From Vulcanisaeta distributa JCM 11217 (GTDB taxonomy: Archaea > Thermoproteota > Thermoprotei > Thermoproteales > Thermocladiaceae): 64,000 nucleotides of DNA. This document shows, piece by piece, positions 1 to 64,000 of the stretch. The DNA lies in assembly GCF_001316005.1 (NCBI RefSeq), contig NZ_BBBJ01000004.1, forward strand, positions 62,001 to 126,000, written 5' to 3'. A program made the position numbers and the translations under genes. The first letter of the stretch is position 1; every line of letters starts with the position of its first letter. The notes under the pieces are model-generated. The model was given only the letters and a program-made list of their open reading frames with translations, made no database searches and was not told where the DNA came from.

Positions 1-6
1 CTTAGG

Positions 7-327
7 ATGATTGAGGATATGCAGAGACTATTCACGAAGCTTTATGACCTAGCCATGACAATACAGGGCGGCGTATTCGTAATACACATAGCAATGCCCA
101 ATGAACCAGGTACTCTAGGCAGGGTTTTAACCACGATAGAAGCAGCCACAGGACTCAACCTGCTGTTAGCCTATGCCTACGGTTGGCCCGGCGAGGCCAT
201 TGGCTACGCCCTACTTGTTTACCCAGCGGAGGGTGGTGATGAGGTTGGTAAGAAGCTTGTTGAGGCTTCGAAATCCGCTGGTGCAATAATACTTGGTGCA
301 TATAAGATTGAGAATAAGATGCTGTGA
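7..327 (+). CDS. ACT-domain protein, possibly 5'-truncated
   Basis: The product is 106 residues if it begins at this ATG, but the frame is still open at base 1, so the real start may lie outside the window. Residues about 20-60 look like an ACT ligand-binding fold: a hydrophobic strand (VFVIHIAM), then NEPGTLGRV, the usual Gly-containing turn and helix start, then a second strand. ACT domains bind amino acids or similar small ligands and regulate an attached or partner enzyme; no catalytic domain is visible here. It converges on the CoA-transferase B gene across a 16-bp gap. Family assignment is moderate, specific role unknown. Confidence 0.6.
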   Translation: MIEDMQRLFTKLYDLAMTIQGGVFVIHIAMPNEPGTLGRVLTTIEAATGLNLLLAYAYGWPGEAIGYALLVYPAEGGDEVGKKLVEASKSAGAIILGAYKIENKML

Positions 328-343
328 TTATAATTTTAATAAA

Positions 344-1069
344 TTACGAATACCTAACACCGCCTGGGTCCAGCTTATTTAGGAATTGTAGCTCATCCTG
401 CGTTACGGTTTCAAGAACACTCAATGTCTCCCTAACCCTTGGTTTAAAGGCCATATTATTAATCACTTCATCAACGCTTATACCAGGGAATAAACCGGTC
501 AGTACCAATTCACCTAATTCATGGTCAAACTCGAACATGGCCTTTGGCGTACATATGGTTAAGCGTGGACCCTGCCTTGTGGGCCCTGGGGCGGTTATGA
601 AGTCAACCCTCTCAACAAGCGTCCTCCTCGAGTGCTCCTTAAGCCACATCACGATCCTACGGGCTCTCCTGTATAGGTAAGCCGCAGCTGCACCACCTGG
701 TAGTCGAACTCTAGGCTTCTCATAGCTACCAATGACTGATAGGTTCATGTTACCACGGCGATCGACCTGGGCCGCGGAGAAGAACATAACGTCAAGCTGC
801 CCACGCCTGGCTAGGTCAAAGGCGTCTAGGCTTGTTACGAAACCTTTACCATCAATGAATAGGTATGGGTCTCCCGATGATGGTGTTATCAATATATCCT
901 TAGGCTCGTATATCTCGGCCACGTTTATGAACCAAATATTCAATCCCCAATACCTAGCCAACGCAACTGCCAACACCGCTGGGACTGAGGCGAGGCCCGT
1001 ATATATAATGTCCCCCCCATCCTTTAATTGCTTAGCCATGCACTTAATGACGTTATCCATGTCAGCCAT
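344..1069 (-). CDS. CoA-transferase family I, subunit B (glutaconate CoA-transferase-like)
   Basis: A 241-residue product starting at the ATG at 1069 resembles subunit B of family I CoA-transferases, which moves CoA between acyl donors and acceptors through a glutamyl-CoA intermediate. Visible marks are the early GDIIYTGLASVPAV segment, the FFSAAQVDRRGNMNLS stretch, and the RLPGGAAAAYL segment, all typical of the GctB/3-oxoadipate CoA-transferase B family. The ORF can be read back to 1186, but that extension overlaps subunit A and has no family similarity, so I chose 1069. Its start overlaps the end of subunit A by 8 bases, implying translational coupling. The acyl substrate cannot be told from sequence. 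Confidence 0.8.
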   Translation of the reverse strand: MADMDNVIKCMAKQLKDGGDIIYTGLASVPAVLAVALARYWGLNIWFINVAEIYEPKDILITPSSGDPYLFIDGKGFVTSLDAFDLARRGQLDVMFFSAAQVDRRGNMNLSVIGSYEKPRVRLPGGAAAAYLYRRARRIVMWLKEHSRRTLVERVDFITAPGPTRQGPRLTICTPKAMFEFDHELGELVLTGLFPGISVDEVINNMAFKPRVRETLSVLETVTQDELQFLNKLDPGGVRYS

Positions 1070-1882
1070 GGGCAAACACCTCAAGCACCTTCTCAATACT
1101 AAGCCCAGCCTTAACACTATCAAAGTACCTCTTGATAATTTCGTAATCAGCCTTATAATAACCGTACATAGACGTCGGCCACGCACCCCCTTGGCGAATG
1201 CACAACCGCGGTTATCATGAAGCCAGGTATTGTTAATCGCTCTGGGTGCTCCCTAAAGTAATCCTCACTGACTATCTCCTCCGCCGTAACTATAACCTTC
1301 TTGGCAGCCTGAATCTTAAGTAAATCCTCGTATTTAGGGCCATAAATCTCAACATCACCCCCCCTCTCATCAGCCCTATGAACATGCACTAGGGCCACGT
1401 CAGGCCTTATCGCCTTAACCGCGACCAACTCCTGGTCATTAAACGGATCCCTAATCACCTTCCAAATACCCCTCTTGACGTTCAACGGGACTAAATCGCT
1501 ATCTAACGCTATTGCCGATGGCATGAAGGGAAGTCCATAAGCCCTGCACGGAGTCCCGCCATTACACCCTCACAAACATCCTCTATGAACTCCACCTCGC
1601 CACTCTCAACCATTCTCCTGAACCCAGGGGGGGCAATGCCGAAGTGCTCGAAGGTCACCATGGCAGCTCTAATTCTCTTAACCCTACCCGATATCGTTAA
1701 TAAATCGAAGGCAAGCCAGGTTCCCTATCCACCAGCGCCAAGTCCCTCTTATTTGACCTTGCTATGGCTATGGCCATAGACATGGGATTGCGGTGAAAGG
1801 ACATGCCTCCAATCGCTATTTCATCGCCATCGTTTATCAAATCTAATGCCTCGTTAATGCTCATTAACTTGTTCCTAGCCAT
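1062..1882 (-). CDS. CoA-transferase family I, subunit A, frameshifted in three places
   Basis: Read through three frame breaks, this gives about 273 residues of GctA-type CoA-transferase subunit A: ISINEALDLINDGDEIAIGG-like N-terminus, FDLLTISGRVKRIRAAMVTF, then the C-terminal MYGYY segment. Breaks are near 1725 (a G missing in GG), near 1541 (G missing in GGGG) and at 1186-1190, where five C replace an expected four (family motif PRGAWPTS). An ATG at 1882 is preferred to the TTG six bases upstream. The heterodimer partner is the overlapping subunit B. With B, MoaD-like and a small unknown gene it forms a same-strand cluster. I think the breaks are sequence errors, but a decayed gene is possible. 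Confidence 0.72.
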
Positions 1883-1926
1883 TCGCAATCACGAGTACTA
1901 AATTACTTAAGTGGAGGTATTAAGTT

Positions 1927-2204
1927 TTACGATATGAACGCCTTAGGCGCAATTAGCACTTCATCGCCATCACTTAGATTAGTGAGCAAGCCCTTTAGCC
2001 AGTATATATCCCTACCATTCACGATCACGACATAATTCTCATTAAGTTCACCACCCTAAGCAGTATCCTCGGAATCTCCGGATTCACCTCACCAAGCTTC
2101 ATTATTAAATCCCTAACCGTATACCCACTCGGTACCTCCAAGGTGATACTCACAGCATTGGCAAGTTCATGAAGATTCGCTGACAATACCACCCTTACCT
2201 TCAT
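1927..2204 (-). CDS. MoaD/ThiS-type sulfur-carrier fold protein, frameshifted
   Basis: About 92 residues with the beta-grasp order of MoaD/ThiS: a first strand MKVRVVLSANLHEL, then LEVPSGYTVRDLIMKL, and, after a frame break near 2053 (one G missing in a GGGG run), VIVNGRDIYW and LSDGDEVLIAPK, which is the classic D-x-V-x-I-x-P strand. MoaD/ThiS proteins carry sulfur for molybdopterin, thiamine or tRNA thiolation on a C-terminal Gly-Gly. Here the chain ends in KAFIS, without the Gly-Gly, so it may be a MoaD-like protein needing trimming, or not a carrier at all. A molybdenum enzyme lies 6 kb away but not in the same operon. Confidence 0.6.
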
Positions 2205-2209
2205 AACAA

Positions 2210-2458
2210 TCAAGAACAAACGGAATCAACAAATGCCCTCGCTAACTCCCTGGCTCTGTCTATTGAGTTCGTTTCCTCGATACACGCATTCTCCTCATCC
2301 TTCATGTATACTAAGTACTTACCACCAACGTCGTAAATCATGCTCCTACCGAAGCAGTTCTCCTCAAGCAGTGTCTGATAAGCCTCAATGGGTTCCTTAT
2401 CCGATAAAGCCTCAATAATGCTTCTCACCTTATCATTATTGCACTCCATTGGATACAC
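2210..2458 (-). CDS. Small conserved-looking protein of unknown function
   Basis: An 82-residue acidic product (GTG start; an ATG three codons in is equally possible) ends a few bases before the MoaD-like start, so the two are probably co-transcribed. It has a helical N-terminal half (VRSIIEALSDKEPIEAYQTL) and a short strand-rich segment (IYDVGGKYLVYMKD), with three cysteines at spread positions. A TATA-like stretch on this strand near 2474-2485 lies about 25 bases before the start. I do not recognise the family. Confidence 0.5.
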   Translation of the reverse strand: MYPMECNNDKVRSIIEALSDKEPIEAYQTLLEENCFGRSMIYDVGGKYLVYMKDEENACIEETNSIDRARELARAFVDSVCS

Positions 2459-2524
2459 CGTGCCATGAACCCTTTTAAATATAGCGTTAATACTTAATTA
2501 ACTTAAGACATGCCAAGCCACTAA

Positions 2525-3010
2525 ATGAGTAGGGAGTACCCAAGGTATCCATTAGTTGGCGTTGGCGCCATAGTCATTAAAGACGATAAGATACTGCTAA
2601 TAAGGAGAGACGCCGAGCCCAATAGGGGGGGTAAGTGGTCAATACCTGGTGGTATGGTTGAGCCAGGCGAGGACCCAGATAAGGCAGCATTGAGGGAGTT
2701 ACAGGAGGAGACCAGCATTATTGGCAAAGTGACTGGCCTCTTCGGTATTTACCAATACATAGAACGAGATAAGGAGGGCAGGGTTAAGTACCACTTCTTA
2801 CTGCTGGATTATTTAATTGAGCCCGTTGGTGGTGAGCCCAGGGCATCGAGTGATGCCATTGAGCTGAGGTTTGTCGATTTAAGGGAGTCATTAAGCCTTG
2901 ACTTGACAGATACAGCTAGGCAGTTGATAATGGACCTCCTGGATTCGGGACCTAGACCGTGCGGCGGCGGCTTAATTAAGTACGTTAATAAAGTATCTCA
3001 AAATCGCTAA
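2525..3010 (+). CDS. NUDIX hydrolase
   Basis: A complete 161-residue NUDIX protein. The catalytic box runs from about residue 41: GGMVEPGEDPDKAALRELQE followed by ET, matching G-x5-E-x7-R-E-x-x-E-E. The N-terminal VGVGAIVIKDDKILLIRR strand pair is typical. NUDIX enzymes cut nucleoside diphosphates linked to another group, using Mg2+ bound by the box glutamates; ADP-ribose or oxidised nucleotides are possible substrates but not determinable. The G7 at 2625-2631 makes NRGGKW where relatives usually have N-R-G-K-W, so one Gly may be spurious. Its 3' end overlaps the convergent acylphosphatase gene by 26 bases. A TATA-like box lies near 2492-2504. Confidence 0.9.
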   Translation: MSREYPRYPLVGVGAIVIKDDKILLIRRDAEPNRGGKWSIPGGMVEPGEDPDKAALRELQEETSIIGKVTGLFGIYQYIERDKEGRVKYHFLLLDYLIEPVGGEPRASSDAIELRFVDLRESLSLDLTDTARQLIMDLLDSGPRPCGGGLIKYVNKVSQNR

Positions 3011-3266
3011 ACTCATTCCTGGGCTCCTCATACTCCACATCAACATCCTCAACCACAGCCCCCCCGGGAGGCCCCCCCTTACTAACAATACTTATTAATT
3101 GGTCGACGGCATCATCAGGCCCTTCCGCAACTATCTCTACCGTGAAGCCATCAGGTAAATTCCTAACAAAGCCCTTAACGCCCAGTCTCTTGGCATTCCT
3201 CCTCACAAATGCCCTGAAACCAACTCCCTGGACCAGGCCTTTAACGAGTACGTGAACCCTCTTCAT
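2985..3266 (-). CDS. acyP: Acylphosphatase
   Basis: A full-length 93-residue acylphosphatase that hydrolyses carboxyl-phosphate bonds. The signature VKGLVQGVGFRAFVRRNA (residues about 8-25) contains the Arg that binds phosphate, and GFVRNLPDGFTVEIVAEG supplies the conserved Asn and the second signature. The family is small and usually 90-100 residues, as here. Its 3' end overlaps the end of the NUDIX gene in a tail-to-tail arrangement. The C7 and G-rich stretches near the C-terminus (KGGPPGGAVVED) include homopolymers whose length may be inflated. Confidence 0.93.
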   Translation of the reverse strand: MKRVHVLVKGLVQGVGFRAFVRRNAKRLGVKGFVRNLPDGFTVEIVAEGPDDAVDQLISIVSKGGPPGGAVVEDVDVEYEEPRNEFSDFEILY

Positions 3267-3314
3267 TCATTATCTAAATAACGTTTTAAATTAGGACTTT
3301 AAAGAATAACTAAC

Positions 3315-4982
3315 GTGCTGATTACCGACGTTAATAAGGTACTTAAGGCATTACCGGGGGGGATTGTGCTTTTCATAAGTTTACTATTTATAACCGGTAT
3401 TAATGCTGCACGGGCGTTAATCGTGGTTTCATTATTCGTGTTATTTTATGAATTATTTAGGAAGTATCCATTGAGAAATAACTGGTTCTTAATACCGTTG
3501 ATTTCAGAGATAATCCTTGCATTATCCATGGTATTTATCATGAGTAATGTCTATGTTTATGATGTATTAGCGGTATTTCTAGGGATTATAGTGCTGGTTT
3601 TATCGTTAAGGGTTGCTGATTTAAGGGCTATGATTGTATTAATGTTGCTATACGTTCTATACCTATTCTATAGGGGTTATGTAAATCCCGCACCTCCGGC
3701 GCTCTATTTACTAATTAATTCGCTCCTTATATTCGCATCATCCTTCATAATAGCGATTAGAAGTTCAATCCTAATGTATAGGATTGACTTCCCTGAGGAT
3801 GTAATTGATAAGGCGATAACATATATTGGCGTGCTTCTAATAATACCTGCCGCCGTGTTTCTCCTAGTGCTAAATCAACCCTACGTATACATGGCATTAA
3901 TACCGTCAATAATATCCGCAGTGCCCATGATGCGCAAATTCCCTGGCTACGTCTCGGTGGCTGTATTACTGGTGACCTTGGTTTACGGTGTATACCCGGT
4001 GATTAGGGTTTATTGGCTGAGCATTACCGCCTTAATACTCGTCTTTATAATAATGTACTTAAGACCAACCAGGCTAAGGTTTGTTAGGGGATTGAAACCA
4101 CCATTATCATGGTTAGGCGCGTGGTTAGGCGGTAAGTACTTAATAGACGATGTCGTTGCCACCGGTGGTTTTAGTTACGTGCTTAGAGGCAGGGATGAGT
4201 GGGGGGGTAGAGTTTACGCCATTAAGGTTCTTAAGGATAGGGATTCGAGGGGGGGTAACCCGCTGGCTAATGACCCAAAGGTGCTCTCGTCATTCAAGAA
4301 GGAGATGAGTGAGTACCTACTTATTGAAAGCCCGCACATTGTTAAGGTGTTCGAGGTCCACATACCACCTGACGAGAAGCTCCCGTACAAGTCACTGGAG
4401 GATTACCTGGGTGAGCCGCCTTACGTGGTTATGGAGTTCATGGAGGGAGGATCACTGAGGGATTTAATGAGGGAGAAGGGACCGCTAGAACTCGGTGAGT
4501 TCTTGAGGTTGGCGTACTCAATAACGCTTGCGCTGGCCGAGCTCCATAAGGCGAATATAATACACCTAGACCTTAAGCCCGAGAACATACTATTTAAGGA
4601 TAGGGAAAGGAGGATCGTTAAGATTGGCGACTTAGGCGCGGCTAAGATAATGGTTGGCGGTAAGTCCTACGTATCGCAATTCTCAATCGCTTACGCGGCC
4701 CCCCCTGAGGTTAGTAAGGGTATTGCCGACGTTAGGTCGGATATCTACTCACTATCATGCATATTCTACGAAATGTTAACGGGAGTAAACCCACATATTC
4801 ATAGGCTAAGTAGTGGGCAGGCCATAATACCCTTAATAACCAGTTATAGACCTGACGTACCGCCTGAAATCGCATCATTGATAATGAGGGGGGGTCTTGA
4901 GTTAAACCCATCATTAAGACCGTCAAGTACTAATGAAATACTGGCTGTGTTAAGTAGGTTCGTGAATCCACAAGCTACTTAG
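3315..4982 (+). CDS. Membrane-anchored Ser/Thr protein kinase
   Basis: A 555-residue protein with about eight hydrophobic segments in the first 255 residues, followed by a cytosolic Hanks-type kinase domain. Kinase marks: glycine loop near residue 280 (ATGGFSYVLRG), VYAIKVL lysine near 300, catalytic HLDLKPENILF near 416, DLG in place of DFG near 438, and an activation-segment end reading AAPPE near 461. The last is normally A-P-E; the C7 at 4699-4705 probably adds one Pro. WGGRVYAI likewise carries a G7. The many-helix N-terminus could be a sensor. The gene ends 2 bases before the end of a convergent FHA gene, a plausible phosphothreonine-binding partner. Starts with GTG. Confidence 0.85.
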   Translation: MLITDVNKVLKALPGGIVLFISLLFITGINAARALIVVSLFVLFYELFRKYPLRNNWFLIPLISEIILALSMVFIMSNVYVYDVLAVFLGIIVLVLSLRVADLRAMIVLMLLYVLYLFYRGYVNPAPPALYLLINSLLIFASSFIIAIRSSILMYRIDFPEDVIDKAITYIGVLLIIPAAVFLLVLNQPYVYMALIPSIISAVPMMRKFPGYVSVAVLLVTLVYGVYPVIRVYWLSITALILVFIIMYLRPTRLRFVRGLKPPLSWLGAWLGGKYLIDDVVATGGFSYVLRGRDEWGGRVYAIKVLKDRDSRGGNPLANDPKVLSSFKKEMSEYLLIESPHIVKVFEVHIPPDEKLPYKSLEDYLGEPPYVVMEFMEGGSLRDLMREKGPLELGEFLRLAYSITLALAELHKANIIHLDLKPENILFKDRERRIVKIGDLGAAKIMVGGKSYVSQFSIAYAAPPEVSKGIADVRSDIYSLSCIFYEMLTGVNPHIHRLSSGQAIIPLITSYRPDVPPEIASLIMRGGLELNPSLRPSSTNEILAVLSRFVNPQAT

Positions 4983-4984
4983 TG

Positions 4985-5395
4985 CTATGGGTTTTCCTCC
5001 GTCATTAATGATAGTTTAATAACGGTGTAGTAACCAAGCCTAATAACAACATCGCCACTAAACCTATACTCACTTATCTTCTTAAATGCCCCCCCACCCT
5101 CAAGTACGTACGTGCCATTCGTACTATTTAAATCCTTAATTAATAACTCATTACCAACCATCGTTATTACCGCATGCTTCCTAGATACTGTTGGGTCGGG
5201 TATTATGACCATGTTCTCAGGACTCCTACCAAGCGTTATTTCCCTTATTATTGATAAGTCGAAAACCACCTTAAAGTCCTTCATAAAGTCTCTGGGGGGG
5301 CTCTCGATAAACACCAGTTCAAGCTTACCTGGACCCCTCCTCACAGTTTCTGTGTTGGGCAGCTCCATCCTCCTTGTTTCCTCATTATGCTCCAT
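4985..5395 (-). CDS. FHA-domain protein
   Basis: A 136-residue soluble protein with one forkhead-associated domain in residues about 50-130. The hallmarks are ITLGRSPENMVIIPD, SRKHAVI and NSTNGTYV, giving the Gly-Arg, Ser-Arg-Lys-His and Asn-Gly residues that read phosphothreonine. The N-terminal 25 residues are charged and contain a T-x-x-V stretch that could itself be phosphorylated, as in other short FHA adaptor proteins; that is inference. Tail-to-tail with the membrane kinase at 3315-4982, suggesting a kinase-reader pair even though the two are not co-transcribed. It lies 60 bp downstream of S26e on the same strand. Confidence 0.9.
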   Translation of the reverse strand: MEHNEETRRMELPNTETVRRGPGKLELVFIESPPRDFMKDFKVVFDLSIIREITLGRSPENMVIIPDPTVSRKHAVITMVGNELLIKDLNSTNGTYVLEGGGAFKKISEYRFSGDVVIRLGYYTVIKLSLMTEENP

Positions 5396-5454
5396 TATGC
5401 ATTATCATGAACTTGAAATGTCTTATAAGAGTTACTGCCGTACATTATTTAAAC

Positions 5455-5855
5455 TCAGGGTTTTGCTGGCGCTCCCTGAGTATTTTGTGATGTTGAGGTT
5501 GCTGGTGCCTGTGTTTGAGCGGGCTTTGTTACCGGCGGCGCTGTTATCGTCTCTCTACGCACAGGCGCCTTCGTTAATGAAATCCTCCTCTTCCTCTCAT
5601 CCTCAGCCCTGACCTTCAGTATGCCTAGGTAAATTGCACAATTTATGCAGTAGGTCTTTGTGACGTAGTACCTAGGGACGATAGCGCCCTGCTTCTCAAG
5701 CTCTCTGGCGAGGTCGGCTGGCACTGGTGAGTAAGGCACAGTGACCCTAACGGCCTTAGACTAGGTACTAGCTTACCGCAATTGTCGCAATAAACCATCG
5801 GTTCCTTGCCCTTATCTCCTTTGTGTCTTCCTCGATTCTTTCTTTTCTTTGGCAT
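5455..5855 (-). CDS. rps26e: Small ribosomal subunit protein S26e, frameshifted
   Basis: Archaeal/eukaryotic S26e binds near the mRNA exit site of the 30S subunit. The start MPKKRKNRGRHKGD, the zinc-site cysteines in VYCDNCGKLVP and the later YCINCAIYLGI pair are diagnostic. The gene is split near 5763, where GTACCTAGTCTAAG lacks one G relative to the expected VPRSKAVRVT frame; joining the two frames gives about 133 residues, the normal length plus a Pro/Thr/Gln-rich C-terminal tail of about 40 residues. As S26e is essential, an error in the sequence is far likelier than a real break. Divergent from AmrS at 5973. Confidence 0.88.
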
Positions 5856-5972
5856 ATCTTGGTTTCATGCAGTGGGCCGTTTAAAAAACATACCCCCCCC
5901 TCCGTAACCACGTGCTGATTAAGGAAACTTGCTTGCCTCATAAGGTTTTTAATCATGAATTAATGATTAAAT

Positions 5973-7131
5973 GTGAGCCTAATGAAGGAGGCGACATTAT
6001 ACAAGGCGTTGCCGGACGGTAGGGTCGAGTGCACGGCATGCGCAAGGAGGTGTAGGCTTTCTGATGGGCAATATGGATTTTGCGGTGTTAGATGGAATTT
6101 AGGTGGCAGGCTTTACTTAATGGTTTATGGCAAGATATCGGCAATAGCGTGGACCCAATCGAGAAGAAGCCACTTTACCACTTTAACCCAGGCTCCATGG
6201 TCTTATCCTTCTCAACGTACGGCTGCAGCTGGGCATGCCAATACTGCCAGAACTTCGACATAAGCCAGAGAAGAGTCCTCGAGGGGGTTCGAGGTAACCC
6301 CCAGAGAAGATCGTTGAACTAGCTGAGACCTACGGGACCCAGGGAATCACATATACGTATAATGAACCATCGATATTCGCAGAGTTCGCGTATGACGTCG
6401 GAATCCTCGCAAAGAAGAGGGGGTTGTTTAATACATTCGTTACTAACGGGTACATGACCGACGAGGCCGTTGACTACATATCTAAGTTCCTCGATGCAGC
6501 TACCGTGGACTTTAAGGGTAATGCCGAGCCCAAGTTCCTAAGGAAGTTCTCATTAGTCCCAGACCCAGAGCCCATATTCCAGACGCTCCTTGAGATGAAG
6601 AGGAAGGGGGGGATATTCATCGAGGTTACAGACCTCGTAGTCCCGGAAATAGGCGATAACCTTGAGTACGCCCGTAAGCTGGCTAGGTGGGTTGTGGATA
6701 ACCTAGGGCCTGAGACACCCATGCACTTCCTTAGGTTTCACCCCCCCGATTATAAGGTTGATTACCTACCGCCAACACCCATAGAGACGCTGGAGAAACA
6801 TGCTCAGGTGGCTAAGGAGGAGGGGGGGCTTAAGTACGTTTACATTGGTAATGTTCCAGGGCATAAGCTCGAAAACACCTACTGTCCAAACTGCGGTAGG
6901 GTTGTTATTAGGAGGAGGGGCTTCGACATATTAGAGGTTAACTTAACGGAGGATGGCAGGTGCAAGTTCTGCGGCGCCAAAATAAACATTGGCGGTAAGG
7001 TGTGGCCAACCTGGAGATTAAGTGATAGGTTCGCCTATGTGCCTATTGAATTACTTTCTAGGTATGTCAAAATAACCAGGGAACAAATAGAGGAGTTTAG
7101 GAGGAAAGTCCACGTTAGAATGCAGGAATAA
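5973..7131 (+). CDS. amrS: AmmeMemoRadiSam-type radical SAM enzyme, frameshifted
   Basis: About 385 residues when three breaks are repaired: near 6148 (G missing, expected IAVDPIE), near 6282 (G5 for G4) and near 6300 (C5 for C4). The radical SAM cluster motif is [11 protein letters not shown], spacing C-x3-C-x2-C. The N-terminal [10 protein letters not shown] and C-terminal [17 protein letters not shown] cysteine pairs are typical of this family, which sits beside AMMECR1 and Memo genes in many archaea; neither is nearby here. The reaction in archaea is unproven (related enzymes include glycyl-radical activases). Start is GTG at 5973 or ATG at 5982. Confidence 0.85.
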
Positions 7132-7132
7132 G

Positions 7133-13142: not shown

Positions 13143-13155
13143 GTATTGATTGTGG

Positions 13156-13253
13156 TGGACCGGCCGGGATTTGAACCCGGGATCTCCCGCGTGCAAGGCT
13201 TATGCGGGGCGTTAGCCCCCCCTGGGCATCCTTCCAGGCTAGACTACCGGCCC
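13156..13253 (-). tRNA. tRNA-Ala(UGC) with intron in the anticodon stem
   Basis: The minus strand folds as a tRNA: acceptor GGGCCGG with CCGGUCC, carrying the G3-U70 pair that marks alanine tRNA, T arm CCGGG-UUCAAAU-CCCGG, and discriminator A. The anticodon arm closes only if 24 bases (13200-13223) are removed, giving stem CCCGC/GCGGG and loop CUUGCAC with anticodon UGC. CCA is not encoded. A TATA-like AAGCTTAAATTTC lies on the minus strand around 13275-13288, inside the end of the GNAT gene. Confidence 0.93.
13200..13223 (-). other. 24-nt tRNA intron at position 29/30
   Basis: The intron interrupts the 5' strand of the anticodon stem between CCC and GC, not the usual 37/38 site; the flanking sequence fixes the junction uniquely. 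It contains a potential hairpin GGGGC-UAAC-GCCCC, but the G side is written as seven G where four would pair, another case of the tract inflation seen across the window. Cutting by the archaeal splicing endonuclease would need a relaxed bulge-helix-bulge. Confidence 0.8.
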
Positions 13254-31744: not shown

Positions 31745-32432
31745 GTGGATAAGGTAGTACTATTACTCACCGAGGCTTCACTCGAGACAGTGCCTAAGGA
31801 ATTGCTGAATGATCCCGTAATAATTAGGGATGCAAGGAGAAGAGGGGTAAACCCAAGGTATCTAATTCTTGATAGGGCTAGGCATCACAGGGCCATGACT
31901 AGGTTATCTAATGCGGAGAAGCGGGGTAGGCCCGATATTCTTCACCAAGCACTTCTCCTTATACAAGGTAGTCTACTTGTACGGAATAACATGGTTAAGA
32001 CGTACATACATACAATAAATGATTTAGTAATTGATGTTGACCCAGAAATACGTCCACCGCGTAATTACGAAAATTTTATTGGATTAATGAGCCAATTATT
32101 TGAGGTGGGTAGGGTACCACCCGTGGGTAAGCCATTGATGAGGTTTGTGGGTGGAATTGATTATGTATTAAATACTGAGCTACCTGATCGCAAAATACTT
32201 CTTGATGACGTGAGGGGGTAAAGAAATATCTTTAAGGTCATTTATTGATTACGTGAGAGGTTTTAAGAGACCTTTGATAATGATTGGAGCATTTCCCAGA
32301 GGCTCGTTCGAGGAGCGTACTTACGGACTTGCTGACGATATTTTAAAAATCGGTAAGTATGTCATGGATACATCATCAATACTATGTAGATTACTTACAG
32401 CACTTGAGATTGAATTAGGATTCATATCTTAG
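31745..32432 (+). CDS. nep1: Ribosome biogenesis methyltransferase Nep1/Emg1, frameshifted
   Basis: About 229 residues. Nep1 methylates N1 of a pseudouridine in 16S rRNA helix 35. Features: VVLLLTEASLETVPKELLND, ILDRARHHRAM, GRPDILHQALLLIQGS and RPPRNYENFIGLMSQLFEVG. The frame stops at the G5 at 32214-32218; with four G it continues EISLRSFIDYVRGFKRPLIM-IGAFPRGSFEE and LTALEIELGFIS, the family's C-terminal region. GTG start. Co-directional with glmS, which begins 53 bases on with its own AT-rich leader. Confidence 0.88.
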
Positions 32433-32485
32433 GGCTAAATATTTATTAATTCTAATTAATTTATTTAGGATTAAGTGCTTGGGTT

Positions 32486-34330
32486 ATGTGCGGTATTATT
32501 GGTATTACGTCGTTGCCGAATAACCTTAGGGAACCCATTGGTAAAGTGGTTAGGAGATGCCTTGAAAGGCTTGAGTATAGGGGGGGGTTATGACTCAGTT
32601 GGTATTGCGGTTATTAAGGGTAATTACATAGAGGTTAGGAAGGGTAAGGGTAAAATTGCTGAGGTTAGCACTAGGCTAAACTTCGATGAAGTCAATGGCA
32701 CAACCGCCATTGGGCACACTAGATGGGCCACCCATGGAAAACCAAGCGATGAGAACGCACATCCACACACGGACTGCACGGGTAATGTTGCCGTTGTTCA
32801 TAACGGAATAATCTCGAATTTCCTGGAACTTAAGGAGGAACTGATTAGTAAGGGTCACGTATTCAAGAGCGAGACGGATACTGAAGTCGTTGCCCATTTA
32901 ATTGAGGAATATTTAAAGCTTGGTTACAAGCCCTTCGATGCGTTTAAGGCCGCGTTATCTAGATTGAGGGGGGGTGCTTACGCATTCGTTGTTGCGATAG
33001 CCCAGGAACCCAATAGGCTTTACTTCGCTAGAAACACTTCGCCGTTGGTTATCGGCATCGGCAACGGCGCTAATTTTGTTGCCAGTGACATACCGGCCTT
33101 TCTCGAGTTTACCAACATGGTGATAGTACTTAGGGATGGTGAGTATGGGTATATCGAGCCTGGCAAGGTCTATATTGAGAAAGATGGCATTCCCGTCAAT
33201 GTTGAGGAGAGGGTTAGGCTCATTAGTTGGACACCTGAGATGGCGAGTAAAGAAGGCTACCCGCACTTCATGCTGAAGGAAATACATGAACAACCCTTCG
33301 CCATAAGCTCGACATTAGCGGGAATTAATGAGAAGGAATTTGATGATGTGGTTAATCTCCTCTTAAATTCGAGAAAAGTGCTAATAATTGGCGCTGGCAC
33401 GTCATATCACGCCGGCCTTGTCGGTGATTACCTGTTCACGTCAATGCTTGGTCTCGATACGCATACAATCATATCCTCTGAGTATAAGAAGTATGTTAAT
33501 GCGATCAATGAGGATGATGCCGTGATTGCCATTAGCCAGTCAGGCGAGACTATAGATACCCTGGTTGCCGTGAGGGCGTTTAAAGAGAGAGGTGCCAAGG
33601 TTATTGCCATATCGAATGTCATCGATAGTGCAATACCTAGGGAGTCGAATTACGTACTTTACACGAGGGCGGGTCCCGAAATCGGCGTTGCCGCCACTAA
33701 GACCTTCACCACACAATTGATTATTCTTACAATACTCGCCTTAAGGCTGGTATTGCCATGGGTAGGCTGGACCAGGGTGAGTATAGGAATCTCATGGACT
33801 CCCTCAATAAGGTGCCGGGGATCCTTCAGAACGTTATAACTAAGACCGAGGGCAGGGTTAAGGCGTTAAGTGAGTATATGAAGAATAGAAACAATGCGTA
33901 TTACCTGGGTAGAGGTATTGGCGTCCCACTGAGTATGGAGGGGGCCCTAAAGCTGAAGGAGATAGCGTATATACATGCTGAGGCATACCCAGCAGGTGAG
34001 AGTAAGCATGGGCCAATAGCGCTTGTTGAGGAGGGTTACCCCCCCGTCGTATTCTCGATACTTGATGATGATAATGTAGATGCGCTGCTTGGTAATGTTA
34101 TGGAAATGAAGGCTAGGGACGCATACACCATAGGTTTTGTCCCTGAGAAATACGTTAGTAAGTTTAAGGAATTACTGAGTGTAACGTTTGAATTGCCAAA
34201 CATTGACTATAGAATCGCGCCGATAATATACGTAGTGCCTATGCAATTACTCGCCTACTACACAGCAGTTGCGCGTGGTTATGACCCGGACAAGCCGAGG
34301 AATTTGGCGAAGACGGTGACCGTGGAATGA
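32486..34330 (+). CDS. glmS: Glucosamine-6-phosphate synthase (isomerising), frameshifted
   Basis: About 614 residues. GlmS makes glucosamine 6-phosphate from fructose 6-phosphate and glutamine. N-terminal MCGIIGITSLP with nucleophile Cys2, HTRWATHGKPSDENAHPHTD, VHNGIISNFLELKE; two SIS domains with AISQSGETIDTLVA, and the C-terminal RGYDPDKPRNLAKTVTVE. The G8 at 32580-32587 breaks frame where all relatives read LEYRGYDS (four G expected). A second break near 33753 lacks a G (RLGIAMGRL). It overlaps glmU by 4 bases (ATGA), so the two are coupled. Confidence 0.93.
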
Positions 34331-48071: not shown

Positions 48072-49358
48072 ATGTCACTAAGGGGGGGAACTACATTCCT
48101 AGAAAGTGTGTTACAAACACTAAAGAGAGCTATAGAGCTAGGCGGGTACCCACAGGAGGTCTATGAAATCCTAAGTAGGCCCCCCCAGAGAATAATAACC
48201 GTCAACATACCCGTTAGGATGGACAACGGAAAAATACAGGTATTCACGGGTTACAGGGTACAGCACAACAACGCCTTAGGACCATACAAGGGCGGTATAA
48301 GGTTCCACCCAGAGGTCACGCTTGAGGAGGACATAGCGCTGGCCACGGTAATGACCTTTAAGAACGCGTTAAATGGCTTGCCATACGGTGGAGGCAAGGG
48401 TGCTGTTGCCGTTGATTACAAGAAGTTAAGCAAGAGGGAGCTTGAGGAGTTAAGCAGGGGGGGTTATGCAAGGGCGTTGGCACCATTCATAGGCCCTGAG
48501 GTTGATATACCGGCGCCCGACGTTGGTACTGACCCACAGATAATGGCTTGGATGGTTGATGAGTATAGCAAGATCGCAGGCCACAACGTGCCTGGCGTAT
48601 TTACGGCAAAGCCTGTGGTGCTATGGGGGGGCAACCCAGTTAGGGAGTATTCAACGGGCTTTGGCGTAGCTGTCTGGGCTAGGGAGGCGGCGAAGAAGCT
48701 GTGGGGGGGTGGCATTGAGGGTAAGACTGTGGCTGTTCAGGGATTTGGCAATGTTGGTTATTGGGGGGGAGCGTACTGGCTGGAGAAGATGGGTGCTAAG
48801 GTCGTCGCCGTAACGGATAGTAAGGGCGGTGTTTATAACCCGAACGGCCTTAACCTGGCAGAGGTTAAGGCTGTTAAGGATAAGACTGGCACCGTCATGA
48901 ACTACGATGCTCCAGGAACTAGGAAGATAACGAATGACGAAGTCTTGGAGCTACCGGTCGATATTCTAGTACCTGCCGCGCTCGAGAACGTGATACACAA
49001 GGGCAATGCCAATAACATAAAGGCTAAGTTAATAGTTGAGGGTGCGAATGGGCCAACGACGGCTGACGCAGAGAAAATACTGCACTCAAAGGGTGTTTGG
49101 ATACTACCTGACCTTGCGGCTAATGCCGGCGGTGTCGTGATGTCATACCTGGAGTGGGTTGAGGATCTACAGTGGTACTTCTGGGATGAGGAGGAGACAA
49201 GGAATAGGCTAGAGAGGATATTGCTTGACACATTCAATAGGGTAATGAATAGGTGGAGTAAGCTGGGTACGAGCCAGGTAACGATAAGGGAGGCCGCATA
49301 CGTAGAGGCTGTGGACAGGATATACAACGCAATGAAGGTTAGGGGGGGCTGGATCTAA
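48072..49358 (+). CDS. gdhA: Glutamate dehydrogenase
   Basis: Complete 428-residue hexameric GDH: reversible oxidative deamination of glutamate. [12 protein letters not shown] and [16 protein letters not shown] (catalytic Lys), [37 protein letters not shown] (NAD(P) Rossmann), [14 protein letters not shown]. The gene contains seven G/C runs of exactly seven (48082, 48180, and others) and none of four to six. At several of them the archaeal GDHs I know have one residue fewer (LSRGY-, LWGNPVRE, KLWGGIEGK, TRGWI). Frame is intact since each excess is three bases. Divergent from padR. Confidence 0.95.
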
Positions 49359-56650: not shown

Positions 56651-56691
56651 GTATGGATTAGGTAAATTAATTAGTTCCTATCTTAATTTCA

Positions 56692-57499: not shown

Positions 57500-57678
57500 T
57501 GGTGATTACCTGCCCATACTGCGGCATGAATAATTGGACAATGATACAATTCCTAAGTAGAAGAGGCAGTGAGAACTTCATAATCGCATGCCGCTGTAAT
57601 AACTGCGGTAAAATCTTTTACTTATATAAGACGAAATTCGCAACGTTAACCTATAAATTAGAGGATATTGGTCTTTAA
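57499..57678 (+). CDS. Small zinc-ribbon protein
   Basis: A 59-residue protein starting directly on the XPF stop: MVITCPYCGMNNWTMIQFLS then ACRCNNCGKIFYLYKTKFAT. The four cysteines (CPYC and CRCNNC) make a zinc ribbon of the transcription-factor or RNA-polymerase-subunit type. Shorter than RPB12-like but similar in shape. Coupling to XPF suggests co-expression with DNA repair, and the histone follows 70 bp later. No family certainty. Confidence 0.6.
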   Translation: MVITCPYCGMNNWTMIQFLSRRGSENFIIACRCNNCGKIFYLYKTKFATLTYKLEDIGL

Positions 57679-57717
57679 TACACGCTTAATTTCTTATGTG
57701 TAGAAAGAGGAAAAATC

Positions 57718-57727
57718 CTTAAATATT
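57718..57727 (+). promoter_or_regulatory. TATA box of the histone gene
   Basis: CTTAAATATT is centred about 26 bases before the ATG at 57749. Confidence 0.5.
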
Positions 57728-57748
57728 AATCCCTAAAGAATATCATTA

Positions 57749-57979
57749 ATGCCGGAATTACCACTGGCACCAATAGATAGAATTTTCCATAAAGCAGGTG
57801 CTGAAAGAGTGGGTGAAGATGCAATACAAGCATTGAGAGATATTCTTGAATATATTGCGTTTGATATAGCCTCAAAGAGTATAGAGTTGGCGAGACATGC
57901 TGGAAGAAAGACGGTAACAGCTGATGATGTAAAAACAGCAATTAGGATTCTTAGATGTATACCTGCGCCAACATCATAA
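57749..57979 (+). CDS. Archaeal histone
   Basis: Intact 76 residues of HMf-like histone fold, with no tails. APIDRIFHKAGAERVGEDAI is the first helix; RDILEYIAFDIASKSIELAR the long middle helix; GRKTVTADDVKTAIRIL the R-T pair and last helix. Wraps and compacts DNA as dimers and hypernucleosomes. In crenarchaea, histones occur in Vulcanisaeta/Caldivirga-type and Thermofilum lineages but not in Sulfolobales, which supports the taxonomic call. The neighbouring genes are DNA repair related. Confidence 0.93.
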   Translation: MPELPLAPIDRIFHKAGAERVGEDAIQALRDILEYIAFDIASKSIELARHAGRKTVTADDVKTAIRILRCIPAPTS

Positions 57980-58030
57980 TGCCATTATTTAAATAATAAA
58001 TATTATTAAACTTATATTTTAAATCATTAA

Positions 58031-58431
58031 TTACTCACTTGATCTATCTGCATAATTAACAACGTATTTCCTTGGCTTAAGAACACTAACGATGTAGTTA
58101 AATGCCTTGTCGGGCATGCTGTGGTCGCCACACGTGTATACGTCGACCGTGGCAAACCTGTAGACAGGCCATGTATGTATTGCTATGTGACTCTCCACAA
58201 CCAATGCCAATACACTTACCCCCCCCTCCTTATCACCGTTAATGAACTTCCACGACTTAACCTCGACTAGATGGACATTGGCTACTTCGGCAGCTTTATC
58301 ACCAGTGACCGTAGGAATTTCTCATCACTTAGAATGCTTGGGTCAACCCCCCCGTATAAATTACCGTACACGTGCTTACCGATCACCCCCCCATTTAACC
58401 TTTCATATTCCAACTGGGATGTTGTGGACAT
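58031..58431 (-). CDS. speH: S-adenosylmethionine decarboxylase proenzyme, frameshifted
   Basis: About 133 residues, the usual length for archaeal SpeH, with a G added near 58292 ([17 protein letters not shown]). Autocatalytic cleavage site before the Ser in [30 protein letters not shown] follows. The pyruvoyl enzyme makes decarboxylated SAM for spermidine-type polyamines, abundant in hyperthermophiles. C-tracts in LYGGVDPS and KEGGVSV are G7 and G8. Divergent from the methyltransferase; TATA elements for both genes fall in 58467-58490. Confidence 0.9.
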
Positions 58432-58506
58432 GGCTTTGGGTTCTAAGACCTCGATATGAGCACGCCTTTAAATTCTTTTCCTTTAAATAAAAGAGGGAAT
58501 ACGGAT

Positions 58507-58974
58507 ATGGCTGTACCCTATGTGCCCACACCACGTGATATCGCGATTGAAATGCTTAAACTAGCTAATGTAAGGCCTGGAGAGGTTGTCGTTGACCCCC
58601 CCGGTGCTGGCGAGTGCGGCATCATTACGTTGGCCGTCACCATGTTTAATGCGATTGGTATAGGTATTGAGATTAACCCAGCATTGGTTAGGTCTTGTAT
58701 TGAATCCTTTGAGAAGCTTGGGTTGAGGGGGGGTAGGGCGTATGTGGTGTGGGGGGGTGATCTTTTCGATTTCGATTACTCAATAGCGGATGTGGTGACG
58801 CTGTATCTGGGTAGTGACGTTAATGAGAAATTAAGGCCGAAATTAAACAGGGAACTTAGACGTGGCTCCCGCGTGGTTAGTCATGACTTTGAGGTACCTG
58901 GTTGGCGACCCATAAAGTCAATAGTCGTTGATGGACCATTTAGAGCACACAGAATTTATTTATATACCATCTAG
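58507..58974 (+). CDS. aKMT-type protein lysine methyltransferase
   Basis: Intact 155 residues if started at ATG 58507 (MAVPYVPTPRDIAIEML), since a TATA-like CTTTAAATA lies at about 58480-58490. Class I SAM fold: VVVDPPGAGECGI (D-x-G-x-G; the second Pro is from a C7), IGIGIEINPALVRSCIES, SIADVVTLYLGSDVNEKLRP, and RVVSHDFEVPGW, which match the archaeal lysine methyltransferase aKMT that methylates chromatin proteins such as Cren7. A longer start at 58456 exists but overlaps the promoter. Near the histone, which makes a chromatin role possible. Confidence 0.75.
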   Translation: MAVPYVPTPRDIAIEMLKLANVRPGEVVVDPPGAGECGIITLAVTMFNAIGIGIEINPALVRSCIESFEKLGLRGGRAYVVWGGDLFDFDYSIADVVTLYLGSDVNEKLRPKLNRELRRGSRVVSHDFEVPGWRPIKSIVVDGPFRAHRIYLYTI

Positions 58975-58988
58975 GGTGAGGGTGTTCC

Positions 58989-60028
58989 GTGGATTATAGC
59001 AATAATTTAATAGAGGTGTTAGGCGCATACCTTCTGCCGCTTAGGGATATTGAGGATGCTTTAGGCAGGAATAACGCAGGTGCGAAGATACTAGTCGAGA
59101 CCCCCCCCTTGGATTTAAGAATGTTGGGTTGGAGGTTGTACGGTACTTAAATAATAAGGGCTATAGAACGTATTTAAGTGGTCAGAATGTTTGGGGCGCC
59201 TGTGATTTCTCGGTAGTGAATAATTATCAGTACGTAATTCACTTAGGTCACGCATTACCACCTAATATTTTCCGTATAATAAGTAATAACTTCAGAGTGA
59301 GGAGGAGGGGGGGTTCTGGTGACGTTATTATTATTGAGGTTGAGAATGGACCCACGGTATTATTCTCGGCCATTTACTACGAACCAAAGCCTGAATTATT
59401 GAGTAGGGCTAGGGATGTTCTTAATGATCTTGTTAAGTCAGGTATTAATCCCTTCATTGCGTATTCATTACCATACAAGCTATACGCCCATGAAATTGCG
59501 GAGATGCTTAATGCGCCAATGGCACCCGACCCAATAACCGGCTGTTTTATACAATTTTCAATACCGAATACGGTCTTATTCATAAGCTCCGGATACTTCT
59601 ACCCATTGACGTTTAAGTTCCTGAGGCCTCAAACGACTGTTTATTTATTTGACGTATTTAGAGGAACGCTTGAGAATGTGGATACAGTGTACCGCAGGTA
59701 CTTAGCTATGAAGGTTAAGGCAATTCAGGATTTCAATAATGCGAAGCTAGTGGGTATTGCCATCTCGAGAAAGCCCGGCCAATATAGGCCTGACCTGGTT
59801 GAGGCATTGATTAATAGGTTGAGGAGGTTGGGTAAGGATTTCGTAATTATTGATTTAAATGAGGTTTCGCCTGATTACGTTAATAACCTGCCCGTGGATG
59901 CCGTGGTAAATACTGCATGCCCGAGAATTGGAATTGATGATCTAGACAGGTTTATGAAGCCTGTTGTTAATGCTGGTGATGTTCTTAAGGTGAATAGTCT
60001 CGATTTAAACAATTTATTGGTGTGGTGA
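58989..60028 (+). CDS. dph2: Diphthamide synthase Dph2-like protein, frameshifted
   Basis: About 345 residues with two extra C in the C8 at 59101-59108 (six keep frame: ETPLGFKNVGLEVVRYL). The noncanonical radical SAM family that transfers the 3-amino-3-carboxypropyl group to histidine of EF2. The three cluster cysteines are in NVWGACDFSVV, DPITGCFIQ and NTACPRIGIDD. GTG start 15 bases after the methyltransferase stop, so an operon with it is likely. The C-terminal helix LDLNNLLVW ends 62 bp before the thermosome. Confidence 0.87.
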
Positions 60029-60053
60029 TGCGAGGGTTTACCCTTCATGGGAA

Positions 60054-60067
60054 AGAAAGGTTTTTAT
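60054..60067 (+). promoter_or_regulatory. TATA box of the thermosome gene
   Basis: GAAAGGTTTTTATA is centred about 30 bases before the ATG at 60091; a strong purine BRE precedes the TATA stretch. Confidence 0.55.
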
Positions 60068-60090
60068 AGAAGTGCTTTACGGAGTCGCCG

Positions 60091-61787
60091 ATGAGCAGCG
60101 GTACACAGGCATATCTAGCACAAATCGGTGGTGTGCCAGTACTGGTATTGAAGGAGGGGGGGACTCAAAGGGCCTTTGGTAAGGAGGCAATGAGGATAAA
60201 CATAATGGTTGCTAAGGCAGTTGCTGAGGTTATGAAGTCAACGCTTGGCCCCCCAAGGGTATGGATAAGATGCTCATTGACAGCCTTGGTGACATAACAA
60301 TCACGAATGATGGAGCTACAATACTCGATGAGATGGACATTCAGCATCCAATTGGTAAGCTACTCGTTGAAATTTCTAAGACTCAGGATGATGAGGTTGG
60401 TGACGGGACAACAACGGCAGTAATACTAGCTGGCGCATTGCTTGAGGAGGCGGAGAAGCTACTTGATAAGAACATACACCCAACAGTCGTGGTTTCAGGG
60501 TTTAAGAAGGCACTAGATGTGGCAACAGAGCATTTAAAGAAGATAGCGGTTCCAGTGAAGAGGGATGATGTTGCAACGCTTAAGAAGGTTGCGTCCACGG
60601 CAATGCATGGCAAAATAAGCGAGACGGTCAAGGATTACTTCGCAGAGCTTGCGGTTAAGGCTATGCTACAGGTCGCTGAGGAGAGAAATGGTGAATGGGT
60701 TGCAGACTTAGATAATGTGCAGATCGTTAAGAAGCATGGCGGTGCCCTTGAGGATACACAGTTAGTTTATGGCATTGTGATCGATAAGGAGGTTGTTCAT
60801 GCGGCAATGCCAAAGAGGGTTGTTAATGCTAAGATAGCATTACTCGATGCACCACTTGAGGTTGAAAAGCCTGAGATCGATGCTGAGATTAGGATTAATG
60901 ACCCCCCCAACCAGATAAGGGCATTCCTTGATGAGGAGGAGAACATATTGAAGTCTTACGTTGATAAGTTCAAGGCGCTTGGAGTAAATGCGGTCTTCAC
61001 AACGAAGGGCATTGATGACATGGCCCAGTACTACCTGGCCAAGGCCGGCATCTTAGCAGTTAGGAGGGTTAAGAGGAGCGACATTGAGAAGCTCGTTAGG
61101 GCAACCGGCGGCAGGTTAGTGACTAACATTGAGGACATGACGGAGGCTGACCTCGGCTTCGCAGGCCTTGTTGAGGAGAGGAGGGTTGGAGATGAGAAGA
61201 TGGTATTTGTCGAGCAGTGTAAGAATCCAAAGGCCGTCAGCATACTAATTAGAGGAGGCTTTGAGAGGCTTGTTGATGAGGCCGAGAGGAATCTAACGGA
61301 TGCGCTCAGTGTTGTCTCTGACGTCATTGAGGAGCCCTACGTACTACCCGGCGGTGGCGCGCCTGAGATGGAGGTTGCTAAGGTGGTTAGGCAGTTTGCT
61401 GCTAAGGTCAGCGGTAGGGAGCAGTACGCTGTGGAGGCCTTTGCAAACGCCGTTGAGGTAATACCGAAGACCCTCGCTGAAAACGCCGGCCTTGACGCCG
61501 TTGATGTATTAACTGAGCTGAGGCACATACATGAGAGTAAGGAGGATGGTTGGAAGTACGGTATTAATGCCTTCACAGGTAAAGTAGCCGACATGTGGTC
61601 GCTGGACGTCATTGAGCCCTTAACCGTTAAGTTACAGGCTTTGAAGGCTGCCGTTGAGGCTGCAACAATGGTGTTGAGGATTGATGAGATAATCGCCGCA
61701 AGTAAGATTGAGAGTGAGAAGAAGGAGGAGGAGAAGAAGGAGGGCGAGGAGAGTAAAAGCGGAGGTTCAAGTTCATCATTTGAGTAA
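60091..61787 (+). CDS. thsA: Thermosome (group II chaperonin) subunit, frameshifted
   Basis: About 565 residues with C6 at 60249-60254 read as four (STLGPKGMDKML). DGTTTAVILAGALLEEAEKL (ATP site), GGAPEMEVAKVVRQFA and NAGLDAVDVLTELR are diagnostic. It forms the double-ring ATP-driven protein-folding complex. The G7 at 60156-60162 (EGGTQR for E-G-T-Q-R) and the C7 at 60902-60908 (DPPNQ for D-P-N-Q) add one residue each. The C-terminal tail is KKEEEKKEGEESKSGG, acidic, without the usual GGM repeat. Converges with the T2SSF gene by 12 bases. Confidence 0.95.
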
Positions 61788-62564
61788 GGTCAAAAGAATT
61801 AAACTCAATAAGATACTCAAAATAATCGCCGTAAGGGGGGGCATGTACATATTAATGTCAATATTAAATTCTCTCCTCATTATTCTCGCAAAGATAATTA
61901 TCATGACCGATATCACCGCCTGGATTAAAATTATGAAAAGAGTATTCCAGTGGATTCCGAGGTATTGAAGGGACTTCGCCACCGCAGGTATTGCGAAAAG
62001 CAGTATGTAGTAGCTAAGCATTACCGTTCTTAAGCCCCCCCTCTTCAATGCGCTAATTGTTATCTTATCGCTAGCATACCTTAGCGCCAGTACGTACCTA
62101 GCAAGGCTTAATTCGTTCATTGATAGATTACCCTGCAACTCCCTGGATAATATGGAATCAAGAATGTCGCCATTGACGCCGTATAAGGACCTCAGCAGGT
62201 AAATCCACCTACGTGAATCATCAGCCCCCCCAAGAATGCTCATGACTAACGACCCATCACCACTTAATAACTCACTCACAAAGCCATCCTTAGAATCCAT
62301 GGAGCTTAATAACTCATTATTGAGCCTAGCCCTGAACCTGAGGAACATTCTCCTAATGAGGATTGCCGTGAATGTCACGAAGAGAGGTATCAAGAGTGAG
62401 AGATATGGGTTTACTAACGTAGAGAATACGAACAGGGCTATGGGTCCTATCGATGTTATTCCAATGAGTATTGTTAAGGACTTATCAAGCGAATCAATTA
62501 TTTCCTGAGCCCTAGCCCTGGCATTACCCAGTAGGTATTCATTTAGGCTCATTACCATCACCAA
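61776..62564 (-). CDS. Type II/IV secretion system membrane protein (T2SSF/FlaJ-like)
   Basis: Intact 262 residues, with hydrophobic helices at ILIGITSIGPIALFVFST, LLIPLFVTFTAILI, LSYYILLFAIPAVAKSL, ILIQAVISVMIIIFAR and ILSILLSLILLTLLK. The polar central domain with RYVLALRYASDKITISAL and the position after the ATPase suggest the inner-membrane platform of a type IV pilus-like or archaellum-like system. T2SSF sequence similarity is weak, so the call leans on the pairing. Starts 18 bases after the ATPase stop, same operon. Overlaps the end of the thermosome gene. Confidence 0.6.
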   Translation of the reverse strand: MVMVMSLNEYLLGNARARAQEIIDSLDKSLTILIGITSIGPIALFVFSTLVNPYLSLLIPLFVTFTAILIRRMFLRFRARLNNELLSSMDSKDGFVSELLSGDGSLVMSILGGADDSRRWIYLLRSLYGVNGDILDSILSRELQGNLSMNELSLARYVLALRYASDKITISALKRGGLRTVMLSYYILLFAIPAVAKSLQYLGIHWNTLFIILIQAVISVMIIIFARIMRREFNIDINMYMPPLTAIILSILLSLILLTLLK

Positions 62565-62582
62565 TGCTATTCAATAGCTTGT

Positions 62583-63980
62583 TTAATTGAATTGAATACT
62601 CAATATAATCGTTATTAACGGCATTGCTACCCTCATTAACGCATTAATTACTGCGTTTATTTCCCATCTTCCTGGATTGAAACTCTTCGGGTAAATAATG
62701 GACTTGACCCGACGCATTGAGTTAGTCCTCTCCATCGTCACTAACACGAATTTGCCCAGGTCAATTAATTCATTCAATGAGAAGGCTCTCAACCTATTCA
62801 TTAATGATTCAACACCATCAGCATGCGTGGTACCTAATACCTGAAGGCCTGCATTAACGCCGTGTATTAAGGCTTCAAAGTGATCCCTCTCCCTTAACTC
62901 ACCGATTATTAACACGCCATAACCCCTATGCAATGACTTAAGTACCTCCTCAGTCTTACCAATTATTGATTTAACCTTAACACTTGATGTTGGTAATTCC
63001 AAGGATTCATCAGTCTCATCAATATATATCCTCCTTAAATTAAGTGGTAGCGCCATATCCAGTGCATTCAATAGCGTTGTTTTACCACTTGATGGTGGAC
63101 CCATTATCAAGATATTAAGCCCATGACGCAGTGCCAGAATTAACTCACCAGCTTCCTCAATACTAATTGAACCTAAATCAATCAACTCATTAATTGTGAA
63201 GGGCTTCTTATGAAGCCTAACGTGCACTGACAAACCCTCAACCAAGGGCCATCTATCAACCGAAACCCTAAGTCTCTTATTACCCACCATAATTGAGAAC
63301 TTACCACTTGGATTATCTACAGAAACTCTAACACCGCTTATGTTTGCGATCTTAAGGAACTGCCTCGCTATGGCCTGGGCATCGGCATTGATAACCCTGC
63401 AAACCCCCCCATACATACTATGATTAATGTATACCGAGTCCTGGGTTATGAATATATCCTCAACCTCCTGACTCAGAATGAGTGGTGCTAAATCACCCAA
63501 GCCTAAACTGGCGAGTACTAATGATGATTTAAGCGTGGAATCGTCAATTAGCATTGATAGGAATATCTCCCTTGATGATAATAGTGATGATAAGGAATAC
63601 TCATTATTAGGAACAACCCTACTCACCAATTCAACCAGGTAATTCAAATAGTCATTATTAATTTTATGAAGCTCAATTAAGCACTCGCCATCCTTAACCA
63701 TTGTATTAAAGGATGAGGCCATGGATTGCCTACTCACCGATTTAACGTTATCGATAACTAATGAGAATCCATCCATTGTAATGATTAAACCCTCCTTAAA
63801 CGATTCTATTCTTAAATGAGACTTGGTGCCATACTTAATCAATAAATTAAGAACCCTACTTATGAATCCCTCATTACTGCCTGAATTACGTACGGCATTA
63901 AGTAATGACTTTAGATTCGTAAACTCACAGGTACTTAGTGTCTCAATGGCGTCAATGTCGATCTTACCCTCCATAGCCAT
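62583..63980 (-). CDS. Type II/IV secretion ATPase (GspE/VirB11-like)
   Basis: Intact 465 residues. The N-terminal 250 residues form a sensing domain with little family similarity; then Walker A NILIMGPPSSGKTTLLNALD near residue 290, YIDETDESLELP (Asp box), GVLIIGELRERDHFEALIHG (Walker B) and LGTTHADGVESLMNRL (His box). Hexameric motor ATPase for assembly of pili or archaella, or for secretion. The window ends 20 bases before its start, so upstream genes, for example pilins, are unseen. The YGGVCRV tract is a C7. Confidence 0.85.
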   Translation of the reverse strand: MAMEGKIDIDAIETLSTCEFTNLKSLLNAVRNSGSNEGFISRVLNLLIKYGTKSHLRIESFKEGLIITMDGFSLVIDNVKSVSRQSMASSFNTMVKDGECLIELHKINNDYLNYLVELVSRVVPNNEYSLSSLLSSREIFLSMLIDDSTLKSSLVLASLGLGDLAPLILSQEVEDIFITQDSVYINHSMYGGVCRVINADAQAIARQFLKIANISGVRVSVDNPSGKFSIMVGNKRLRVSVDRWPLVEGLSVHVRLHKKPFTINELIDLGSISIEEAGELILALRHGLNILIMGPPSSGKTTLLNALDMALPLNLRRIYIDETDESLELPTSSVKVKSIIGKTEEVLKSLHRGYGVLIIGELRERDHFEALIHGVNAGLQVLGTTHADGVESLMNRLRAFSLNELIDLGKFVLVTMERTNSMRRVKSIIYPKSFNPGRWEINAVINALMRVAMPLITIILSIQFN

Positions 63981-64000
63981 GTTCGAGAGTTTCTTCGTAA

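Follow-up and report, generated by a model that had tools for sequence, protein, structure and literature searches.

The runs of seven G or C that fill the genome record of Vulcanisaeta distributa JCM 11217 are in all likelihood errors of that record, most probably G/C homopolymer miscalls of a flow-based platform (Ion Torrent PGM), and not a property of the organism's DNA; judging from comparisons between sequences, we give this reading a probability of about 0.93. The extra amino acids encoded at these runs almost certainly do not exist in the organism. An earlier note on this DNA had offered two options, a systematic base-calling or assembly error and a genome-wide in-frame expansion. The former is supported by the way in which run lengths of relatives map onto the record, by changes in ribosomal RNA and by broken reading frames.

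Run lengths of G and C in the window and in the genome

The window, i.e. the whole stretch of 64,000 nucleotides analysed here, corresponds to positions 62001-126000 of contig C4 of the JCM 11217 genome (G000; 2,076,046 bases, 19 contigs, completeness 67%). The runs under study are:

1..64000, both strands: 116 runs of seven and 13 runs of eight G or C, distributed along the window at sites that in relatives are mostly four or five long

The 116 runs of seven (59 of G and 57 of C) compare with about 8.6 expected from a geometric model based on how often GG and CC occur in the window itself. For lengths of three to eight, the window holds 1,238, 75, 24, 6, 116 and 13 runs of G or C and none of nine or more, the expected numbers for lengths four to eight being about 353, 102, 30, 8.6 and 2.5. 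Runs of seven are thus approximately 13 times too common and runs of four approximately 5 times too rare, and the excess of sevens with a shortage of four to six, described in the earlier note, is confirmed. The statement that the runs are of exactly seven holds for the position of the peak, but eights are also in excess (13 against about 2.5). The G4 tracts said to survive near 31840 and 31920 are indeed present, at 31844 and 31923. A/T runs show no peak at seven in the window, where two A7 and no T7 were found.

The pattern extends beyond the window, with 3,857 isolated runs of seven within the 2.08 Mb of the genome. In 604 kb of it, G/C runs of length four to eight number 612, 190, 78, 1,021 and 101, again with none of nine or more. 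A/T runs are normal. A stand-in count of runs of four gave 211 for JCM 11217 and 243 for V. distributa JCM 11216 (G003, NZ_BBBI01), compared to 566 to 693 for four other genomes of the genus (G002, G004, G008 and G010), in a measure on which smaller genomes of the genus score lower and G011 reaches 1,330.

Recorded lengths, reading frames and RNA genes

The complete genome of a relative, G008, was used as the length reference for the window. In all run-length tables only sites with at least 5 of 6 matching bases on each flank were retained, and alignments under a set identity (75, 78, 80 or 90%, depending on the test) were left out. The G/C runs of four in the reference are read in the window as three (2 sites), four (22), five (5), six (1), seven (29) or eight (1), while another 32 differ by substitution; 38 of the 60 pure sites are therefore changed. 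At runs of three G or C, 445 sites stay three, 5 become two and 156 are altered by substitution, and among A/T runs of four, 46 stay four and 48 are altered by substitution. The error thus depends on length. A cleaner comparison is provided by V. distributa JCM 11216 and JCM 16159 (G002, NZ_BBDN01), which differ by 4.1% substitutions. G/C runs of four in JCM 16159 are read in JCM 11216 as four (61), five (11), six (3) or seven (85), and runs of five as five (4), six (3), seven (10) or eight (1). By contrast, the A/T runs of JCM 16159 are identical in JCM 11216 at all pure sites, that is 180 of 180 runs of four and 68 of 68 runs of five. Conserved runs of six become seven or eight. Since true runs of five turn into seven or eight, seven acts as an attractor and the rule is not an addition of three; the appearance of an extra codon arises because the step from four to seven happens to be of three bases. 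These results show that long G/C runs tend to be recorded as seven and sometimes as eight; only G and C are concerned, the effect begins at a length of four, and no run in the stretches examined exceeds eight.

The consequences for proteins were followed in genes of the window, three of which are:

48072..49358, plus strand: glutamate dehydrogenase gene; it contains seven G/C runs of seven, and its product gains seven residues, all Gly or Pro
32475..33839, plus strand: gene with SIS and glutamine amidotransferase domains (GlmS-like; Pfam), with a run of seven at 32968 and a run of eight at 32580
60261..61787, plus strand: Cpn60/thermosome gene (Pfam), with a C run of seven at 60902

A protein kinase was also detected in the window by Pfam; it, the GlmS-like protein and the thermosome belong to the families that the earlier note names. 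The claim that runs of seven bring an extra Gly or Pro was fully checked for one gene, glutamate dehydrogenase, and proved correct there: the protein has 428 residues in JCM 11217 and JCM 11216, seven more than the 421 found in JCM 16159 and three further relatives. The gene has a run of seven at seven places in each of the two strains with the longer protein. Six of the added residues occupy positions common to both, and one is private to each strain. Identity between the window gene and its counterparts at seven named loci of Vulcanisaeta is 92 to 96% over the best segment.

As runs of five or six become seven or eight and some runs of four become five or six, frames are often broken. Compared to G008, the window carries at G/C runs of at least four an insertion of one base in 12 places, of two in 10 and of three in 88; the corresponding figures for a control comparison of the complete genome G004 with G008 are 0, 2 and 1. 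The window has 39 additional insertions of three bases that were not assignable to any single-base run. Split genes were counted with 71 ORFs of at least 120 amino acids from the matching region of G008, of which 11 were absent from the window and 3 were covered over less than 85%. A gene was scored as split when its best single-frame match covered less than 93%, an outcome that a plain gap could also produce. On this basis 27 of 57 genes are split in the window, 35 of 62 in JCM 11216 and 33 of 69 in JCM 16159, versus 1 of 67 in G004. The JCM 11217 record is full of indel errors. It should be noted that the JCM 16159 loci (L162-L166), with their split genes, have normal G/C runs yet show the loss of a single base at many G/C runs of two or three, which makes this another error-rich draft. 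JCM 16159 thus has indel errors without sevens, and the two faults are separable.

The same changes are found in genes without codons. In the 23S gene of JCM 11217, which is only partial and located at the start of contig C10, conserved runs of four read seven at 22 of 43 sites and stay four at 12, and conserved runs of five read seven at 7 of 18 and eight at 6 more. In 16S stretches with about 1.5 kb of flank, runs of four are read as seven at 14 of 34 sites in JCM 11216 and at 18 of 36 in G020, a genome of another genus; a conserved run near the 3' end of the 16S is also lengthened in G020. An archaeal 16S sought in the JCM 11217 assembly gave no match, nor did a 23S sought in JCM 11216 and G020. 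No difference in the spread over lengths four, five and seven was seen when the gene-rich window was set against the 23S alignment, whose row takes in one site outside the gene (p = 0.37). As rRNA undergoes the same changes without having codons, the reading of the runs as inserted codons is unsupported. The insertions sit in conserved rRNA tracts, and G/C runs also carry changes of one and two bases, which is not the pattern of an inherited expansion compatible with gene and rRNA function. A genuine G7 occurs in the 16S of the six unaffected relatives examined (L123-L128), and this run reads eight in G020.

The window also contains a transfer RNA gene, detected by ARAGORN:

13153..13253, minus strand: tRNA gene; an additional segment inside it has a run of seven at 13216 opposite a run of four at 13206

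With introns disallowed, ARAGORN reports a tRNA-Ser; with introns allowed, it reports a tRNA-Ala(tgc). The internal segment comprises about 24 bases and is missing at that place from the tRNA-Ala genes of relatives. The run of seven lies opposite the run of four as if they formed a stem of four or five pairs with one arm miscounted.

Distribution among genomes and agreement between sites

The earlier note had proposed counting run lengths against other genomes, and this count placed a genome-wide peak at seven in JCM 11217 and in two other genomes. Among 702 genome handles, which include duplicates (G041 is the same as G003, G084 as G002 and G085 as G005), thousands of isolated runs of seven were found only in JCM 11217 (3,857), JCM 11216 (4,803) and G020 (7,958), three distinct genomes with completeness of 67, 67 and 47%, respectively. 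All three belong to one family, G020 being of another genus than the two others. The highest count outside these three was 865 (G345), and the count in the ten remaining genomes of the genus ranges from 0 to 5. The ratio of sevens to sixes is 14, 16 and 8 in JCM 11217, JCM 11216 and G020, and below 0.4 in 17 others compared, eleven of which have high counts of sevens. Around glutamate dehydrogenase, 1 of 80 named loci shows the peak at seven, that of JCM 11216 alone. When JCM 16159 was checked at 96 sites where JCM 11216 reads seven, it read seven at none. Sharing by descent with close relatives, as an inherited expansion would show, is thus not seen, and inheritance would need the loss of every expansion in JCM 16159. 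The draft of JCM 14467 (G005, NZ_BBDM01), like JCM 16159 a JCM draft, also lacks sevens; these two drafts indicate that the platform of the culture collection alone is insufficient as an explanation.

Expanded sites of JCM 11217 and JCM 11216 are associated. At 205 sites, both strains read four at 45 and both read seven at 86, the mixed classes holding 26 and 48 (odds ratio 3.1, p = 0.0002). Independence of the two strains had been suggested by 48 sites of the window (odds ratio 0.58, p = 0.54) and was rejected by this larger test, which covers the same stretch too, so that independence is not usable as an argument. No motif was found around the expanded tracts when 12 flanking positions of surviving runs of four and of runs of seven in the window were compared (lowest p = 0.09). 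The proposal of the earlier note that a modified base in GGGG or CCCC is the cause accordingly gained no positive support, as none of the 12 positions separates the two classes. Logistic models of context reached mean AUCs of 0.55 and 0.54, and values of 0.54 to 0.59 when transferred between the two strains, a weak prediction. Neighbouring sites show no correlation in JCM 11217; in JCM 11216 there is a weak one over distances of up to 200 bases. An effect of context on the signal would be able to produce agreement of sites between the two strains. Internal repeats, considered as a further test, yielded one repeat pair in the stretches examined and zero usable sites.

Origin of the runs of seven and its consequences

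Errors of flow-based sequencing at homopolymers are usually off by one base, and calibration by the vendor includes a step that treats each nucleotide separately and applies to homopolymers of four or more. We propose that the draft most likely derives from flow-based (Ion Torrent PGM) data in which true G/C homopolymers of at least four would often be written as seven and less often as eight, five or six, runs of up to three and A/T runs being recorded almost always correctly. Because a length of four predominates among such runs, an addition of three bases would be the commonest error and would resemble an inserted Gly or Pro codon. JCM 11217 and JCM 11216 would share platform and batch, and the faulty step would somewhat sooner lie in the per-nucleotide calibration of the homopolymer signal from length four than in the assembler. 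With regard to the platform, the V. souniana draft BBBK01 was made on Ion Torrent PGM (PMC9872577), and NZ_BBBI01 of JCM 11216 is a neighbouring accession. As with known errors of 454 and Ion Torrent sequencing, the changes described here concern homopolymers only, occur on both strands and in genes as well as RNA genes, and break many frames; unlike these errors, they mostly take G/C runs of at least four to seven and spare A/T. A search of titles and the beginnings of abstracts returned no account that we recognised as this fault, and no homopolymer error jumping to seven instead of five was met in the literature searched.

A fault of assembly or consensus is a serious though less favoured possibility; the reads would then have four bases, and seven would have been introduced by the assembler or in a subsequent correction. 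The outcomes are nearly discrete, mostly four or seven with a ceiling of eight, which is what one expects of a defective model or table, and another JCM draft of 2014 is described, in the part of the report available, as assembled from PGM reads with Newbler 2.8 (PMC3961731). However, assembly and base calling are inseparable from the consensus sequence alone, and a chemical signal explains the specificity for G and C at least as well. A real modification of G/C tracts in these archaea, or a structure of these tracts, could instead distort the sequencing signal and cause the miscall. This would account for the specificity for G/C and the threshold of four, and it would also explain why sites agree in part between two species and why all three genomes lie in one family, but it is very unlikely: the expanded tracts have no surrounding motif, context is weak, and JCM 16159 and JCM 14467, though closely related, show normal runs. 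According to the available portion of PMC8044849, long G-runs occurring in pairs, hundreds of them, are also present in three archaea that are distant from one another in evolution, every one a JCM strain and one of them Thermocladium modestius; such a distribution hints at a cause outside the organisms.

There is next to no chance that GGGG and CCCC tracts grew by three bases in living cells. Changes of three bases are the majority, the expanded sites of two species are associated, and a single family holds the three genomes, all of which would fit such growth. Against it, rRNA carries the same changes, runs of five become seven, frames are broken, the expansion is absent from JCM 16159 at 4.1% divergence from JCM 11216, and ten other genomes of the genus have at most five sevens. 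Phase-variable or expanding homopolymer tracts likewise vary in length between related genomes; unlike them, the runs described here occupy thousands of sites with one preferred length, include rRNA and leave a close relative normal. The earlier interpretation is therefore partly supported: the artefact option is right, and the in-frame expansion is wrong, as runs of five become seven or eight with frequent loss of frame and with rRNA changed too.

The long paired G-runs of PMC8044849 resemble the present runs in being odd long G-runs in genomes of JCM strains, one of them a Thermocladium, but their lengths, in the portion available, exceed seven, whereas the ceiling here is eight. A common cause for both is offered as a suggestion. 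Thermocladium modestius JCM 10088 is also listed, in the available extract of PMC7565180, among the archaea richest in potential quadruplexes.

The ratio of sevens to sixes provides a simple screen for affected records: it set the three genomes with the fault apart from all 17 of the others compared. If the runs of seven are indeed miscalls, proteins taken from these records contain inserted Gly and Pro residues that do not exist, the rRNA genes are likewise incorrect, and the genomes look only 47 to 67% complete. Surveys of G-runs would be exposed to the same fault, and some of the quadruplex signal of JCM archaea, as far as the available parts of PMC7565180 and PMC8044849 describe it, may be artefact.
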